Shown one piece after another: positions 18,317 to 24,188 of a stretch of DNA of 27,876 bases (position 1 is the first letter of the stretch; every line of letters begins with the position of its first letter). The notes under the pieces are model-generated. The model was not told the origin of the DNA. It saw nothing but the letters and a program-made list of their open reading frames with translations, and ran no database searches. Made by a program: the position numbers and the translations under genes. Location: IMG/VR virus record IMGVR_UViG_3300031251_000088, positions 1 through 27,876 of that record; one strand, given 5' to 3'. The stretch comes from a virus.

Positions 18317-19039
18317 TCAGCGGGTGTCGAAGCCGGAATCCCGGGCATCCCGGTTGAGGATGTAGGCCGTCTCGCGGTTGAGGGCGTTGTCCGCGTAGCC
18401 GATGGCGTAGTCGAGCCGGCGAGTGAGCTCGTTGACGAGGCCATCGGGGACTTCGTTGTTGGAGACAGTGAGCTGGTAATTGAACATCTCCAGGATCAGC
18501 CGATGGGATCCGCGACTCGAGCCGTGGCGGGCAACCCAGGCTGGCGTGCCGGAGACGCCGAGGGCATCCGCGCCCGCGAGCCAGCCGGAGGCGAGCTTGC
18601 CGACGCGGCCCTCGAGGGCGACAACGAGGGCCTTCAGCTTGTTCTGGTCCACGTAATAGGGCTGCTTGCGGCCGCGGGTGAGCGGGCGCCCGGGCTGCTT
18701 GTATTTGATGAAGAGTTCGCGGTGCTTGTCGTTGACGTTGGGAGTGACCTCGCGCCGCTCGTGTTTCAGGGTGACCCCCGAAAAGACGGCCGCGAGATCC
18801 CGGATGATGGCGCTGTCGCCGCGGGCCTTGTCGGCGGAAGTGAGACCGCCGCCGTCGCCGCGCGGCGTACCGAGCTCGCCGATCGAATTGCCGGGGGGCG
18901 TGATGCCCATGGCACGCTTGACCACACCGCGCATGGCGCGGACGAAGCTATCGCGCAATGAGCGCTGCGACACCCCGGAGTAGCGGACGATCGAGCGCTG
19001 CAGATCCGTCAGGTCGGCGCGGAAGGTGGCGTTGACCAT
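18317..19039 (-). CDS. Neck / head-tail connector protein (HK97 gp10-like)
   Basis: 240 aa. N-terminus VNATFRADLTDLQRSIVRYSGVSQRSLRDSFVRAMRGVVKRA is typical of minor capsid or head-completion proteins of the HK97 gp10 type. A central basic region (PLTRGRKQPYYVDQNKLKALVVALEGRVGKLASGWLAG) follows. ATG 19039 is preferred over 19084, which would add residues that look antisense-like and would overlap the previous gene. Fits between the 111-aa head-completion gene and the tail terminator. Confidence 0.65.
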   Translation of the reverse strand: MVNATFRADLTDLQRSIVRYSGVSQRSLRDSFVRAMRGVVKRAMGITPPGNSIGELGTPRGDGGGLTSADKARGDSAIIRDLAAVFSGVTLKHERREVTPNVNDKHRELFIKYKQPGRPLTRGRKQPYYVDQNKLKALVVALEGRVGKLASGWLAGADALGVSGTPAWVARHGSSRGSHRLILEMFNYQLTVSNNEVPDGLVNELTRRLDYAIGYADNALNRETAYILNRDARDSGFDTR

Positions 19040-19050
19040 TGGAGAAGCGG

Positions 19051-19386
19051 TCAGTCCAGGACGGAGCGGACGGTCATGACCCACTCGGGGGCCCGGGGAT
19101 TGTCCTGCACCGCGTCGATCTTGTAGGAAAGGCCGGTCTCGACGACGGTGAACGTCTCGTCGAGCAGCGGCCGGCTCGTGAGGAGAATGCGCTGGATGCG
19201 CATCGTGGCCTGGACGGTCTGTTCAAAGCCGCCCGGCGAGAGATCGTGGGTCTCCTGGAGGGAGGAGAGGATTGCGGCGATGACGGAACCGCGATAGGAG
19301 ATGGAGACCGGGAAGGTCGACGCACGCTGGGCGGCGCCGCGGGCCGCAAGATGGTTGGCCTGCGTGGAGGAGAAAGAGAGCGGCAT
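19051..19386 (-). CDS. Head-tail joining protein candidate, 111 aa
   Basis: Alpha/beta: STFPVSISYRGSVIAAILSSL, then MRIQRILLTSRPLLDETFTVVETGLSYKIDAVQDNPRAPEWVMTVRSVL. The C-terminal beta part, ending in the W-V-M-T-V pattern, resembles small head-tail joining (gpFII-like) proteins, which bind the portal ring and present the tail. It is the first gene after the coat gene and a hairpin. No SD; TTTCGACAC 12 nt upstream. Confidence 0.6.
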   Translation of the reverse strand: MPLSFSSTQANHLAARGAAQRASTFPVSISYRGSVIAAILSSLQETHDLSPGGFEQTVQATMRIQRILLTSRPLLDETFTVVETGLSYKIDAVQDNPRAPEWVMTVRSVLD

Positions 19387-19398
19387 GCGGAGGCGCTG

Positions 19399-19406
19399 GT
19401 GTCGAA
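19399..19406 (-). promoter_or_regulatory. TTCGACAC leader motif, 12 nt before start 19386
   Basis: In the 111-bp gap downstream of the coat gene, after the hairpin at 19448-19475. Confidence 0.45.
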
Positions 19407-19447
19407 AACCGGATTTTTGAAGGAGAAGCCACGAAGCGGGAACGAAA

Positions 19448-19475
19448 CAGGCCGCTCCGGGAATGGAGCGGCCTG
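19448..19475 (-). terminator. Hairpin after coat gene, possible weak terminator
   Basis: Perfect 11-bp stem (CAGGCCGCTCC / GGAGCGGCCTG) with a 6-nt loop, followed on the minus strand by TTTCGTT. The stem is strong but the T-tract is interrupted, so partial termination or 3'-end protection of coat mRNA is likely. Confidence 0.6.
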
Positions 19476-19497
19476 TGAATTCGAGGACCGAGCAAAC

Positions 19498-20790
19498 TCA
19501 GCCGAGGAGGATCGCCATGTGCTCGGGCTTGACGGCGAGCGTGCCCCAGCAGACGCCGATCTCGTAGAGGATCATGCGCTGGCCGGGCCAGACCACGAGC
19601 TCGAAGCTGAGGCCCGACAGCGGGTCGGTGATCGTCTCGCGGAGGATGGCGAGATCGCCTTCCTCGGGGCAGGCCGGCAGACGGGTGGCCAGCAGCATCG
19701 CGTTGCGGGACAGGCCCACATTCGCGGTGTAGTTGCCGCCGATCGTCATGGCCTGGGCGGAAGCCGGCAGCGCCTGCATCAGGCCGGGGGCGGCGATCGT
19801 GATGGTGCCGGGGGCGGCGACGCCCACGGTGACCACATACTTGTTCGTATCACCCGCGAAGGTGATGACGTCACCCGCGACCACCGTGCCGGAGCCGGTG
19901 ATGATCGGGATGGAGGTCGTGCCCTTGGCGAAGCCGGCAGCGCTCGAGGTGTAGAGCGTGCCCGTGCCCTTCGTGATGGATTGGACCTGGGCGGCCTCGC
20001 GGAACTTGAAGCCGTTCACGTCGAGGATCATGCCCTGGCGGGTCATGTCGCCGGTGAGGGCGATATTGGCGTTCAACGGATTGTTGAGCAGGGTGCGCAG
20101 GGCGGCGCCGCCGGTCGTGTTGATGACGATGCTGCGGTCCGCGGCGGGCGCACCGTTGTCATCGAGAATCTTCTTGAGCTGGGCGGACTCCGCCAGGTTG
20201 GTGGCGAAGGGCGTGGTGCCGGCGGTGCCGTAGGCGCGGCTCGAGCCGAGCTGCGCGGCGACCGCCAGGTCGACCTCGATTTCGTTCACCGCGGCGCGCA
20301 GCGCCTGGGCAATGTTGAATTGGCGGACGTTGAGATAGCCCGGGCCCGTGTTGATCGACTTCTGTTCCTCACCCGTCCAGTTGAACGGGAAGGCACGCTG
20401 TTTCGTGATCGTCAACGACTTGTTGCCCGGCGACTGGTCGGCCGTGGTCGGGAAGGACATCGCGGGCGCGATATTGCGCCCCGACGTGTTCGCCGTGGTC
20501 TGCAGGACGCGGAGCGTCTGATTGAGGGCCACACGGTCAGCCGAGGAATCGCGGGTGACCGACGGAATGAAACCCACCAGCTCGCGCGACACGACATCGA
20601 GCGCAGCATAGCAGTCGGGGATGAGGCTCGTCAGCGTGTTGAGGCCACAGGCGAAGACCGACTTCACGCCGAACAGCGCGAGGAAATTGGCGAAGACCAC
20701 CGCGATGGCGGCGATCAGGACCGCCGCGAGGCGGAAAGACGCAACGCTCAGGGCTGCGACGAGGCGGAAGGGGAGGCTGAGGAATTTCAT
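19498..20790 (-). CDS. Major capsid protein (P22-coat/HK97 fold) with hydrophobic leader
   Basis: 430 aa. From about residue 51 (NTLTSLIPDCYAALDVVSRELVGFIPSVTRD) the sequence looks like P22-type coat proteins, which start at this point. The C-terminal pattern NVGLSRNAMLLATRLPACPEEGD, GLSFELVV and VCWGTLAVKPEHMAILLG also fits that group. An insertion-like Thr/Gly domain lies at about 270-350 (SGTVVAGDVITFAGDTNKYVV). Residues 1-50 are unexpected: three basic residues and a 22-residue membrane-like helix (LAAVLIAAIAVVFANFLALFGV). The frame has no internal ATG before residue 100; a GTG at about residue 42 is possible. No SD and no TTTGACAY at this gap. Confidence 0.82.
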   Translation of the reverse strand: MKFLSLPFRLVAALSVASFRLAAVLIAAIAVVFANFLALFGVKSVFACGLNTLTSLIPDCYAALDVVSRELVGFIPSVTRDSSADRVALNQTLRVLQTTANTSGRNIAPAMSFPTTADQSPGNKSLTITKQRAFPFNWTGEEQKSINTGPGYLNVRQFNIAQALRAAVNEIEVDLAVAAQLGSSRAYGTAGTTPFATNLAESAQLKKILDDNGAPAADRSIVINTTGGAALRTLLNNPLNANIALTGDMTRQGMILDVNGFKFREAAQVQSITKGTGTLYTSSAAGFAKGTTSIPIITGSGTVVAGDVITFAGDTNKYVVTVGVAAPGTITIAAPGLMQALPASAQAMTIGGNYTANVGLSRNAMLLATRLPACPEEGDLAILRETITDPLSGLSFELVVWPGQRMILYEIGVCWGTLAVKPEHMAILLG

Positions 20791-20839
20791 GATGTGGGAC
20801 GTGGGAAAGGGGAAATGGAGGGAGAGGAGAGCGCGCCGC

Positions 20840-21523
20840 TCAGTTGTTGCCGGAGACGACGGCGGCGAAGGGGCCGATGAGCTTCACGGAGCTGAGCTGG
20901 CCACCGGCGCGGAAGAAGTTCTGCTTGCCGGTCGGGCTCAGCTTGCTGAAGGCCTCGTAGGACAGGACCTTGTCGCTGCCGGCATTCGCATCCGGGGCGG
21001 CGATCGACGGGAGGCCGCTCAGCGGGAAACCCAGCTCGGCGAGCTTGTCCGTCGTGTGGGCCACGACGCGCGAATTGAAGGCGGCCTGCATTTCGGCGGC
21101 GGACTTGCCGGCGAGTTCCTCGGGCTTCAGCCCGATGGCCGTGGCGAAACTGGCGAGTGTCGCGGTGAGCGCAGTGACCTTGGTCTCAACCTCGGTCTTG
21201 GCCGTGACGGCGGCAGCGTGGGCAGCGGCGGCGGTGTCCTTTTCGGCGGTGGCCGTCGCGAGTTTCGCGGTCAGGTCGGCGACCTTGGCTTTTTCGGCGG
21301 CGACTTCGGCAGCCAGAGCCTGCTTGTCGGTGAACGCGGCGGAGAGCTTGGCGAGAAATTGGGCGGGGCTCAGCTTGACGGCATCGTCGGTGTCCTTGCT
21401 CGCGTCCGTGTGCTGGGCAGCGAGCGCCTGCAGCGTGGCGAGCTCGGACTTTTCGGCGGCGGAAAGGGTGGCGGCATCCTTGGCGAGCAGGGCGGTGAGG
21501 CGGAGACGCTGAGACTTTTTCAT
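20840..21523 (-). CDS. Scaffold protein candidate
   Basis: 227 aa, Ala/Lys/Glu-rich. Residues about 65-120 are a long coiled coil (KQALAAEVAAEKAKVADLTAKLATATAEKD). The C-terminal third is compact and ends in a small hydrophobic patch. Composition and place between protease and coat fit a scaffolding protein that guides shell assembly and is removed afterwards. ATG 21523 (MKKSQRLRL) is chosen; the frame is open to 21592 but that stretch covers a terminator. TTTGACAC lies 16 nt upstream. Confidence 0.72.
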   Translation of the reverse strand: MKKSQRLRLTALLAKDAATLSAAEKSELATLQALAAQHTDASKDTDDAVKLSPAQFLAKLSAAFTDKQALAAEVAAEKAKVADLTAKLATATAEKDTAAAAHAAAVTAKTEVETKVTALTATLASFATAIGLKPEELAGKSAAEMQAAFNSRVVAHTTDKLAELGFPLSGLPSIAAPDANAGSDKVLSYEAFSKLSPTGKQNFFRAGGQLSSVKLIGPFAAVVSGNN

Positions 21524-21606: not shown

Positions 21607-22509
21607 TCAGCCGAAGTTGATCGGAGCGGAGAGCAGCGCGCCGACGGCGCTTTGCACTTCAGCGATCACATCGGAAACACTGTCGACCACCTTGTCGGCG
21701 AGACCGAGATCAACGGCCTGGGCGCCATCGAACCACTGGCCCTCCATGGTGGAATCGGCGACGTTGGCGCGCTTGGAGCGCACCGCGGCAAGAAATTGAT
21801 CGTTGGTGCGACCGACGGTCTCGTCCAAGAAGGCACGGGCGTCATCATCGAGCGGATTGCCAGTGACGCCGATCGCCTTGAATTTGCCGCGCTTGAAGAG
21901 CTCGAGCTTGACGCCCATCTGCGCGAGATACTCGGAGTAATCGTAGAGTGCGATGTAGGTGCCAATGCTGCCGACCTGCGCGCTGGCGGTCGTGTAGAAA
22001 AACGTGGCCTGGCTCGCCAGCCAGTAGGCGGCGCTGCAGGCCTGCAAGTCAGTCACGGCCACCACGAGCTTCGTCGCGGCGAGGGCAGCGATCTGGCCGC
22101 CGAGCTCGGGGATCCCGATGACCATGCCGCCGGGGGAGTCGATTTTGAGGACCACAGCGACGACATCGTCGCTCGCAGCAAGTTCGGAAAGAGCGGCCTG
22201 CACGCGATCCGTACTCGCGCAGCCGTAGAACCAGGCGGTGATGGGATCCAAACCCTTCATCAATGCGCCACTGATCTCGACGACGGCCACCCCGTTCTCG
22301 ACGGTGAAGATGGGAACCTCCCATGGGTAGCAGGGCTCGTCCTGATCCTCATCATCGGCCGGCATGTCGGCGCGGGTCGCGATCGGCGTGCGGACCGGCT
22401 TGCCCGCGGCGATGTCGCGGATCAATCCGACGAAGCAGTCGGAGCGGAGGAAAAGCGGCGAGGCCAGAAGCTTGGCCAGGAAGGCGTTGGAGGAAAGGGC
22501 GGTTTTCAT
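21607..22509 (-). CDS. S49-family (SppA-like) prohead protease
   Basis: 300 aa. The family core is clear: ALMKGLDPITAW, LKIDSPGGMV at 121-130, the nucleophile-bearing ACSAAYWLAS with S159, GSIGTYIALYDYSEYL at 180-195 and a Lys-rich segment KRGKFKAIG near 206-213 that should supply the catalytic lysine. Phage S49 enzymes cut scaffold and coat leaders during head maturation. ATG 22509 is preferred over TTG 22521. It follows the portal stop by 8 nt. Because S49 relatives digest membrane signal peptides, the hydrophobic leader of the coat is a plausible substrate. Confidence 0.9.
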   Translation of the reverse strand: MKTALSSNAFLAKLLASPLFLRSDCFVGLIRDIAAGKPVRTPIATRADMPADDEDQDEPCYPWEVPIFTVENGVAVVEISGALMKGLDPITAWFYGCASTDRVQAALSELAASDDVVAVVLKIDSPGGMVIGIPELGGQIAALAATKLVVAVTDLQACSAAYWLASQATFFYTTASAQVGSIGTYIALYDYSEYLAQMGVKLELFKRGKFKAIGVTGNPLDDDARAFLDETVGRTNDQFLAAVRSKRANVADSTMEGQWFDGAQAVDLGLADKVVDSVSDVIAEVQSAVGALLSAPINFG

Positions 22510-22517
22510 GAAGAAAA

Positions 22518-24188
22518 TCAATCACCGGCCGCGCCGCCACCCCGCTCATCTGCGCCGGCCTGGGTATCGGCGTCGTCGTTGGCATTCGTCGGATCATCCG
22601 TGCTGGCACCGACGGCGGGCGCGCCCGTCGACATGCCACTGCGCTGGTAGAACCGATTGAGAACTTCCGCAGGATCGAGGCCGCGTTCCACCGCGCCGGC
22701 GGCGATTTTCTGGTATTCGTCCATCCACTCGGCGAGTTCGTGGTCCGAGTCGAGACCCTGCATGCCGAAGAAGCGACGGAAAGTGAGGGCGCCGCTGCGC
22801 AGCTGGTCGAGGTAGAGCTTGCCGTCGCGGCCGTAGTCGGCCGTCCAACGCGCGGGAGCGATCCAGTCGTGGCGCCACCACATCGGATCGGCGCACTTGC
22901 GCAGGCGACCGGCCTTCATGTCCTTCGCGGTGAACCAGATCAACTGGCGGCCGAGAACGGCGTCGATCAGGTGCTGCTGCTCCTGCTCGACGAAGGACTG
23001 CGCATCGGCGAGGACGATCCGGGAATTCGCGCCTCCGAGGGCGGCGATGTTCCACAGGATCTCGGGCGAGAGATCCACGCCCCAGGACATGTCGCGGGCG
23101 AGGTGCTCGAAAAACGCCATGGAGTTGGGGTGCGGCCGGCTGTCGAGCAGCTGCTTGATCTCCTGGCCGGCGGCCAGGTCGGGGATCTCGCCACCGGCAG
23201 CCGCGAAAAGTTTCTCGGTGCGGACCGTATTTCCGCTCACATCGGTCACGACGGAGGTGCCCGCCGGCGCGCGGCCGCGGAGGCTGGGGGCAGTGCTCGC
23301 CCCGACCTGTCGGCCAATGTAATAGCCGATGCGGGAGGAGGCCTTGAGGCCACTCTTCAACGCGGCATCGAGCTCGGAAATATCGAGCAGGTTGTTGACG
23401 GCGTGCGTCAGGATGGACGTCGCGCGGTGCGCACCCGGGCTCGAGTATTTGCCGAAGTAGATGAAATTCTCGACGCCGATGTCGACCTGGCTGCCGTCAT
23501 CGTTGGAAATGCTGAGGCCGTAGGGATTGGCATGGCCGCAGATGCGATAGGAAACGGCGGCGTTGTATTGGTCGACGCGCACGCCATCGAAGAGCGAGAG
23601 CTCATCGCCCGGCACCGTCTGGCCATTGGAAATCTGGTGCGACTCGTAAAACGCCATGCGGCCGAGGCCGGCCGCGGACTCCGCGAGCACCATGCCCATG
23701 TCGCCATCGCGGTACCGGCAGTGCAGATTCATCGCCTGCGCCGAGTAGAAATTGTAGCGGCGACCGACATCGTAGATCGCGGCGGTGCCGACGCGGTTTT
23801 CGAAATTCTGGAGGGCGAGCTTGTTCCACTCCTTGTCGGAGCTCATGAAACGTGGCATCAGGCCGGTGCCGGCCACCATGCGCGGGATGCCATCGAGCAC
23901 GCGGCGGGTGAAGCCGACATTGGCATAGAGGTAGCGCACCCGGCGCAGCGTCTCGACTCGGGTGCGCATCGTGATCTCCTTGCGCGTATCGAGCTGGGGA
24001 AAGTAAACGTAGGCGCGATCCGGGGAGCGACTGGCCGACTGGTAGCCGTTGGAACCAACGGCGCCGTAGGGCCAACCGGTGAGCAGCGAGGAATCGGCCA
24101 TCGGTGTGACCATGGGCTCGTCGGCAAGCGGCGCCGGTGAGCGGCTGGCGCGCGCGGCGCGCGGGGCGGTGGATTTTGCGCGGGCCAT
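22518..24188 (-). CDS. Portal protein (lambda gpB family)
   Basis: 556 aa. Family-like segments include TMRTRVETLRRVRYLYANVGFTRRVLDGIPRMVAGTGLMPRF, the DGDMGMVLA strand, and the helical stretch HLARDMSWGVDLSPEILWNI, then RIVLADAQSFVEQEQQ. The C-terminal 40 residues are disordered and acidic. A dodecameric ring at one vertex would act as DNA conduit and assembly nucleus. Starts as TGA-CC-ATG after the 104-aa gene. Length is normal for the family. Confidence 0.9.
   Translation of the reverse strand: MARAKSTAPRAARASRSPAPLADEPMVTPMADSSLLTGWPYGAVGSNGYQSASRSPDRAYVYFPQLDTRKEITMRTRVETLRRVRYLYANVGFTRRVLDGIPRMVAGTGLMPRFMSSDKEWNKLALQNFENRVGTAAIYDVGRRYNFYSAQAMNLHCRYRDGDMGMVLAESAAGLGRMAFYESHQISNGQTVPGDELSLFDGVRVDQYNAAVSYRICGHANPYGLSISNDDGSQVDIGVENFIYFGKYSSPGAHRATSILTHAVNNLLDISELDAALKSGLKASSRIGYYIGRQVGASTAPSLRGRAPAGTSVVTDVSGNTVRTEKLFAAAGGEIPDLAAGQEIKQLLDSRPHPNSMAFFEHLARDMSWGVDLSPEILWNIAALGGANSRIVLADAQSFVEQEQQHLIDAVLGRQLIWFTAKDMKAGRLRKCADPMWWRHDWIAPARWTADYGRDGKLYLDQLRSGALTFRRFFGMQGLDSDHELAEWMDEYQKIAAGAVERGLDPAEVLNRFYQRSGMSTGAPAVGASTDDPTNANDDADTQAGADERGGGAAGD

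Follow-up and report, generated by a model that had tools for sequence, protein, structure and literature searches.

Filamentous phages make their pVIII coat with a Sec/YidC-type leader, and hydrophobic segments preceded by a basic N-region are recognized by SRP/Sec or insert into membranes. No description of a signal-like leader on an HK97-fold or tailed-phage coat was found in the literature searched, a negative that is weak evidence because most subscription journals were outside search coverage. In the tailed phage SPP1, procapsid precursors are built at the cytoplasmic membrane, and membrane-located procapsids have been observed in several tailed phages; in both cases the mode of binding is stated as unknown (PMC13212656). 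The membrane association of SPP1 depends on the portal and not on the coat (PMC13212656), which counts against targeting by a coat leader. In P22, the N-arm of the coat protein lies on the inner face of the procapsid, where it is bound by the scaffold hook; N4 is a gp5 residue in contact with the scaffold (PMC9965877).

The window analyzed here, a 27,876-nucleotide stretch of viral DNA (IMG/VR record IMGVR_UViG_3300031251_000088, positions 1 to 27,876), encodes a P22-type coat protein that begins with a genuine, protein-coding, membrane-helix-like extension absent from most of its relatives (Table 1). The family's usual coat start, (M)ANTLT, corresponds to window residues 50-51, so that the frame opens 50 residues earlier than expected; the PHROG 283 (major head protein) profile covers the protein from residue 51 only, and among 71 homologues from phage records the matches listed as best begin at window residue 51 or 52. 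The leader has four basic residues (K2, R9, R20, and K43) and no D or E, and its N-terminal portion is Sec-like, with K2, R9, and R20 followed by the uncharged core; hydropathy peaks over the 12 residues from 21 to 32 (mean Kyte-Doolittle 3.18). A first-pass annotation had described a hydrophobic stretch of about 22 residues accompanied by basic residues, its position ahead of the usual P22-like coat start, an uninterrupted coat frame, and adjacent scaffold and S49 genes. All of these descriptions hold: the frame stays open on the minus strand over all 430 aa, and immediately upstream come a probable scaffold gene and then the S49 gene. On the opposite strand, a 613-aa open frame antisense to the coat gene (19039-20880, plus strand) is most likely a GC-rich mirror frame and not a gene.

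Table 1. Features of the coat gene and its upstream neighbors (window positions)
Feature	Position	Strand	Basis or remark
Major coat ORF, 430 aa	19498-20790	-	ATG 20790 to stop at 19498; PHROG 283, P22-type fold
Coat N-terminal leader, residues 1-50, MKFLSLPFRLVAALSVASFRLAAVLIAAIAVVFANFLALFGVKSVFACGL	20641-20790	-	Upstream of PHROG 283 match start
Uncharged hydrophobic stretch LAAVLIAAIAVVFANFLALFGV, residues 21-42, exactly 22 residues	20665-20730	-	Sequence
In-frame GTG, residue 42, candidate internal start	20665-20667	-	No SD-like sequence
Possible signal peptidase I site V45-F46-A47/C48, just N-terminal of canonical coat start	20647-20658	-	Sequence pattern by eye
P22-type coat core, residues 51-430	19501-20640	-	PHROG 283, E = 1.9e-78; best structural matches P22 procapsid coat 8i1v
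Probable scaffolding protein	20840-21523	-	ATG 21523 (listed ORF from GTG 21592)
S49-family head maturation protease	21607-22521	-	Pfam PF01343, E = 1.7e-24; phrog_53, E = 2.3e-59
Lambda-type portal protein	22518-24188	-	Pfam PF05136, E = 1.5e-26

Structure prediction, proposed in the first-pass annotation, places the leader in a single helix (residues 6 to 39) on a flexible linker. In the AlphaFold2 model of the window coat (mean pLDDT 84, coat core confident), block means over this helix, which includes most of the uncharged stretch, are about 58 to 79, and the linker between helix and core (residues 41 to 53) is of low confidence, below 50. The best solved matches of the model in Foldseek are P22 procapsid coat chains (8i1v, E = 1e-17, TM 0.60), consistent with an HK97 fold like that of P22 gp5.

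Scans of viral contigs, genome contigs, and phage records yielded 218 distinct coats, of which 39, called by a hydrophobicity threshold, bear in-frame leaders of 23 to 70 residues; most others begin with (M)ANTLT. The first-pass annotation had held that homologues lacking the leader would speak against it, and most do lack it, but the trait is polymorphic and not absent from the family. An N-terminus without a leader is usual in PHROG 283, not obligatory, and since the leader is polymorphic there, the 50-residue extension by which the window coat departs is no bar to membership. The nearest coat core to that of the window (72%), L082 from an Opitutaceae MAG, bears a leader as well, as do L126 (MKKSILLSIAAVCAMALSSVALA...), L130, L058, and a Burkholderia-type group around L093. 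Coats of two Rhizobium phages, P106B and RHph_X2_24, open with MRKN and are annotated in their records with the leaders MRKNLILPSLAAPFILSGAYASA and MRKNILLGGSVLAAPFIGHLSAYASA, respectively, each running directly into NTLT. Further copies were almost absent from 387 genomes of the phylum of L082 and 399 genomes of the order of L093. In the Burkholderia-type group (L093, L112-L121), the leaders are amphipathic, not strongly hydrophobic, and fail the signal-like filter defined below. A separate small hydrophobic gene in leaderless relatives was considered and rejected, with a candidate ORF in only 3 of 171 gaps and no consistent gene. The coat of L101 (Gilliamella sp. Pra-s52) has the N-terminus MAKSSLTTNQGIRFTHALLIPTIYTALD, without the NTLT motif, and possibly represents another type of N-terminal replacement.

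An extension of this kind might be a functionless, chance product of GC-rich DNA, and the window leader, which has neither a significant sequence relative nor an SD-like sequence, would fit that explanation. For all 218 coats, in-frame extensions of 20 to 75 codons before the coat were compared in the three frames of the same DNA, with signal-like defined as a basic, acid-free N-region followed by a 12-residue core of mean hydropathy of at least 2. Signal-like extensions are specific to the coat frame (29/46, against 0/53 and 0/55, or 0/108 together, in the shifted frames), and their background rate was 35 in 1,667 other ORFs of the same loci. L174, one of 30 coats flagged as signal-like, is probably a chance case because its relatives start at MTILTLTG. 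In leader groups of relatives, pN/pS values for leader and core were 0.16 versus 0.13, 0.31 versus 0.31, and 0.36 versus 0.53, and in the Rhizobium phage pair 0.24 versus 0.34; these values come from relatives' leaders, not the window's, and pairs inside one leader group are not independent. They indicate that several leaders of relatives are under purifying selection as protein. On the frame control we reject a chance open frame, and given the leader of L082 and selection elsewhere in the coat family, we regard a functionless extension as extremely improbable.

The charge order is the same in 28 of 28 leaders examined, with no acidic residue before the core and an N-region of +1 to +4, and leaders of different groups have little sequence in common (between-group mean Z of 0.1 to 1.3, versus 13.3 and 7.8 inside the two large groups). 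Unrelated leader groups thus share one Sec-like architecture, and what is conserved is therefore physics and not sequence. The window leader is a sequence singleton, with no significant relative among the leaders compared; homology to the leaders of L082 or L025 was rejected as not significant against shuffles, though BLAST reaches into the L025 leader.

When the leader label is mapped onto a tree built from 158 coat cores without their leaders, 18 changes are needed, at least 11 of them forced by well supported branches, although these are changes on a quick tree and cannot separate gain from loss. Leaders have also been swapped between cores: those of L130, L058, and L193 are 69 to 78% identical, with cores only 53 to 65% identical and in different clades. 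Conversely, L122 and L123 have cores 97% identical, different N-terminal leader halves, and unrelated scaffolds. These two coats, from the same metagenome, show that modules immediately before the coat core have been exchanged in nature. The near-sisters L130, with a leader, and L145, without one (core 82%, scaffold 80%), are nearly identical over about 100 nucleotides of 5' flank; what separates them is a clean insertion or deletion of the leader at the coat start codon, and the leader therefore uses the coat's own translation start.

Both pairs bear on the possibility that, in the manner of the HK97 delta domain, the hydrophobic leader packs with scaffold inside the procapsid and never meets a membrane. 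This explanation retains some weight because the P22 coat N-arm faces and touches scaffold on the inner procapsid wall (PMC9965877), and the leader type can switch with the scaffold gene, as in L122 and L123. However, L130 and L145 are near-identical coat and scaffold pairs with a leader in one alone, the universal basic, acid-free N-region of unrelated leaders is left unexplained, the low-confidence linker is the sole connection between leader helix and core in the AlphaFold2 model, and a protease gene was not found in most leader-bearing loci. We consider such an internal segment unlikely, with appreciable probability nonetheless.

Translation signals bear on a different alternative, in which an internal start (GTG42 in the window) yields the virion coat and the leader form is minor or regulatory. 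The GTG that the first-pass annotation placed near residue 42 does exist, 9 residues upstream of the canonical start, and the Burkholderia-type leaders retain an ATG at -10. SD-like sequences were found neither at this GTG nor at the coat ATG or the other head genes inspected in the window. Elsewhere in the family, SD motifs precede the leader start in several proteobacterial loci (for example, L128, L133, L140, L195-L200, and L204), and internal start codons are generally without SD, whereas many leader starts have it. No nearby internal start codon occurs in L082, L130, L058, L258, L070, P106B, or RHph_X2_24, the last two having none between the first ATG and NTLT. Together with protein-level selection on the leaders of relatives, these findings make the internal start quite improbable.

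Other features of these junctions were observed. In L064, leader codon -2 is a TTG exactly at the would-be leaderless start (TTG-A-N-T-L-T), possibly a relic or an alternative start. The scaffold stop codon of the window is the site of a short inverted repeat, GAGCG-GCG-CGCTC (20825-20842, minus strand), and L130 and L145 have a terminator-like hairpin with a T run in the same place, before the coat start.

The gene upstream of the coat is called a scaffold from its position between protease and coat, its coiled-coil-like composition, and a weak PHROG match only; a search of viral contigs returned no relatives of it. Beyond it lies the S49 gene, and the first-pass annotation had suggested either assembly of the coat at the inner membrane or a leader serving as an internal scaffold that the protease removes. 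Among loci with at least 3 kb upstream, S49 was present in 4 of 30 with leaders and 24 of 136 without (Fisher p = 0.79), and nearly all members of the window's clade with enough upstream DNA carry it, leader or no leader. The upstream genes scanned in L130, L126, L117, and P106B matched phrog_145 portal, phrog_241 head morphogenesis, or phrog_784/206 scaffold, with no dedicated protease among them; the phrog_241 proteins have in common a weak match to phrog_595, called a head maturation protease. The S49 search profile was grown from the window's own protease, and very distant proteases could therefore escape detection. We reject S49 as the leader's partner in any general explanation. The protease half of the earlier suggestion is thus not supported, S49 not being associated with leaders, and the membrane half is plausible and has been strengthened by the many unrelated Sec-like leaders.

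We tentatively interpret the leader as a Sec/SRP-type segment that targets or anchors newly made coat at the membrane, an interpretation that we hold with somewhat less than even confidence and that is favored over all rivals on account of the position of the P22 N-arm, the recognition of such segments by SRP/Sec, and the SPP1 precedent. It is from the architecture of the leader that we infer a membrane function, including the targeting, its timing, and the leader's fate. The basic N-region and hydrophobic helix would target the nascent coat, and a flexible tether would join them to a normal P22-type coat, kept against the inner face of the cytoplasmic membrane during procapsid nucleation by scaffold and portal. 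Because the P22 N-arm lies on the inner procapsid wall, the leader would emerge toward the scaffold and end inside the shell. Host signal peptidase I, or perhaps, in the S49-bearing clade only, the phage protease, might later clip it near the canonical coat start, or it might be left in place inside the shell. The amphipathic Burkholderia-type leaders would at most bind the membrane surface. Full Sec export of the coat would be incompatible with DNA packaging; this, the expected final position inside the shell, the amphipathic leaders, and the lack of a sequence relative for the window leader all count against targeting.

A variant explanation is a cleavable signal peptide, which host signal peptidase I would cut at or near A/NTLT, so that the mature virion coat looks leaderless; targeting would then serve maturation at the membrane. 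The leaders of P106B and RHph_X2_24 end in AYASA/NTLT and that of L070 in SVYA/NTLT, several others (L126 and L129 among them) carry an AxA motif downstream of the core, and the putative cleavage context in the window is VFA/CGLNTLT. Alanine before NTLT is nevertheless weak evidence of cleavage, because it is also the second residue of leaderless MANTLT coats, with which the window's junction alanine is confounded. Some leaders terminate in V, S, L, or P, and the periplasmic location of signal peptidase I activity fits a cytoplasmic coat poorly in topological terms. We judge this variant rather improbable.

Our findings suggest that, in some tailed phages, coat protein is delivered to the cell membrane during shell building. 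That tailed phages repeatedly gain, swap, and lose, at the start codon of a single coat family, unrelated Sec-like leaders that tether the coat to the inner membrane for procapsid assembly is a broader proposition, possible but doubtful at present; if true, the leaders would constitute a gene-encoded mechanism for membrane-associated procapsid assembly. Evolution can treat the N-terminus of a coat gene as an interchangeable module, and leaders of this kind may go unseen where annotators trim start sites. With the leader present and absent in close coats (L130 and L145), and present in the database phages P106B and RHph_X2_24, the question of membrane binding is directly testable.

Comparison with known systems places the locus among several precedents. 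It resembles P22 in its core fold (gp5, HK97 fold with insertion domain, 8i1v), the position of the N-arm helix, and the neighboring scaffold gene, but P22 has no leader and no adjoining S49 protease. With the delta domain of HK97 and T5, a scaffolding domain at the N-terminus that the prohead protease cuts off, it shares an N-terminal coat extension, possibly removed here too. A delta domain stands in for a scaffold gene and is cleaved by a linked protease, whereas the window leader is short and hydrophobic, a separate gene probably encodes the scaffold, leaders show no association with S49, and most leader-bearing phages here show no prohead protease. Filamentous pVIII is likewise a phage coat with a leader, but its fold is unrelated and its assembly is of the extrusion type. 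SPP1 shell assembly is also proposed to begin at the cytoplasmic membrane, but it needs the portal, and no coat leader is reported (PMC13212656). The coats of vB_RglS_P106B and RHph_X2_24 belong to the same family and have the leader annotated as part of the coat; their leaders differ in being shorter (23-26 aa) and ending in AxA, and P106B differs in being without the S49 module.
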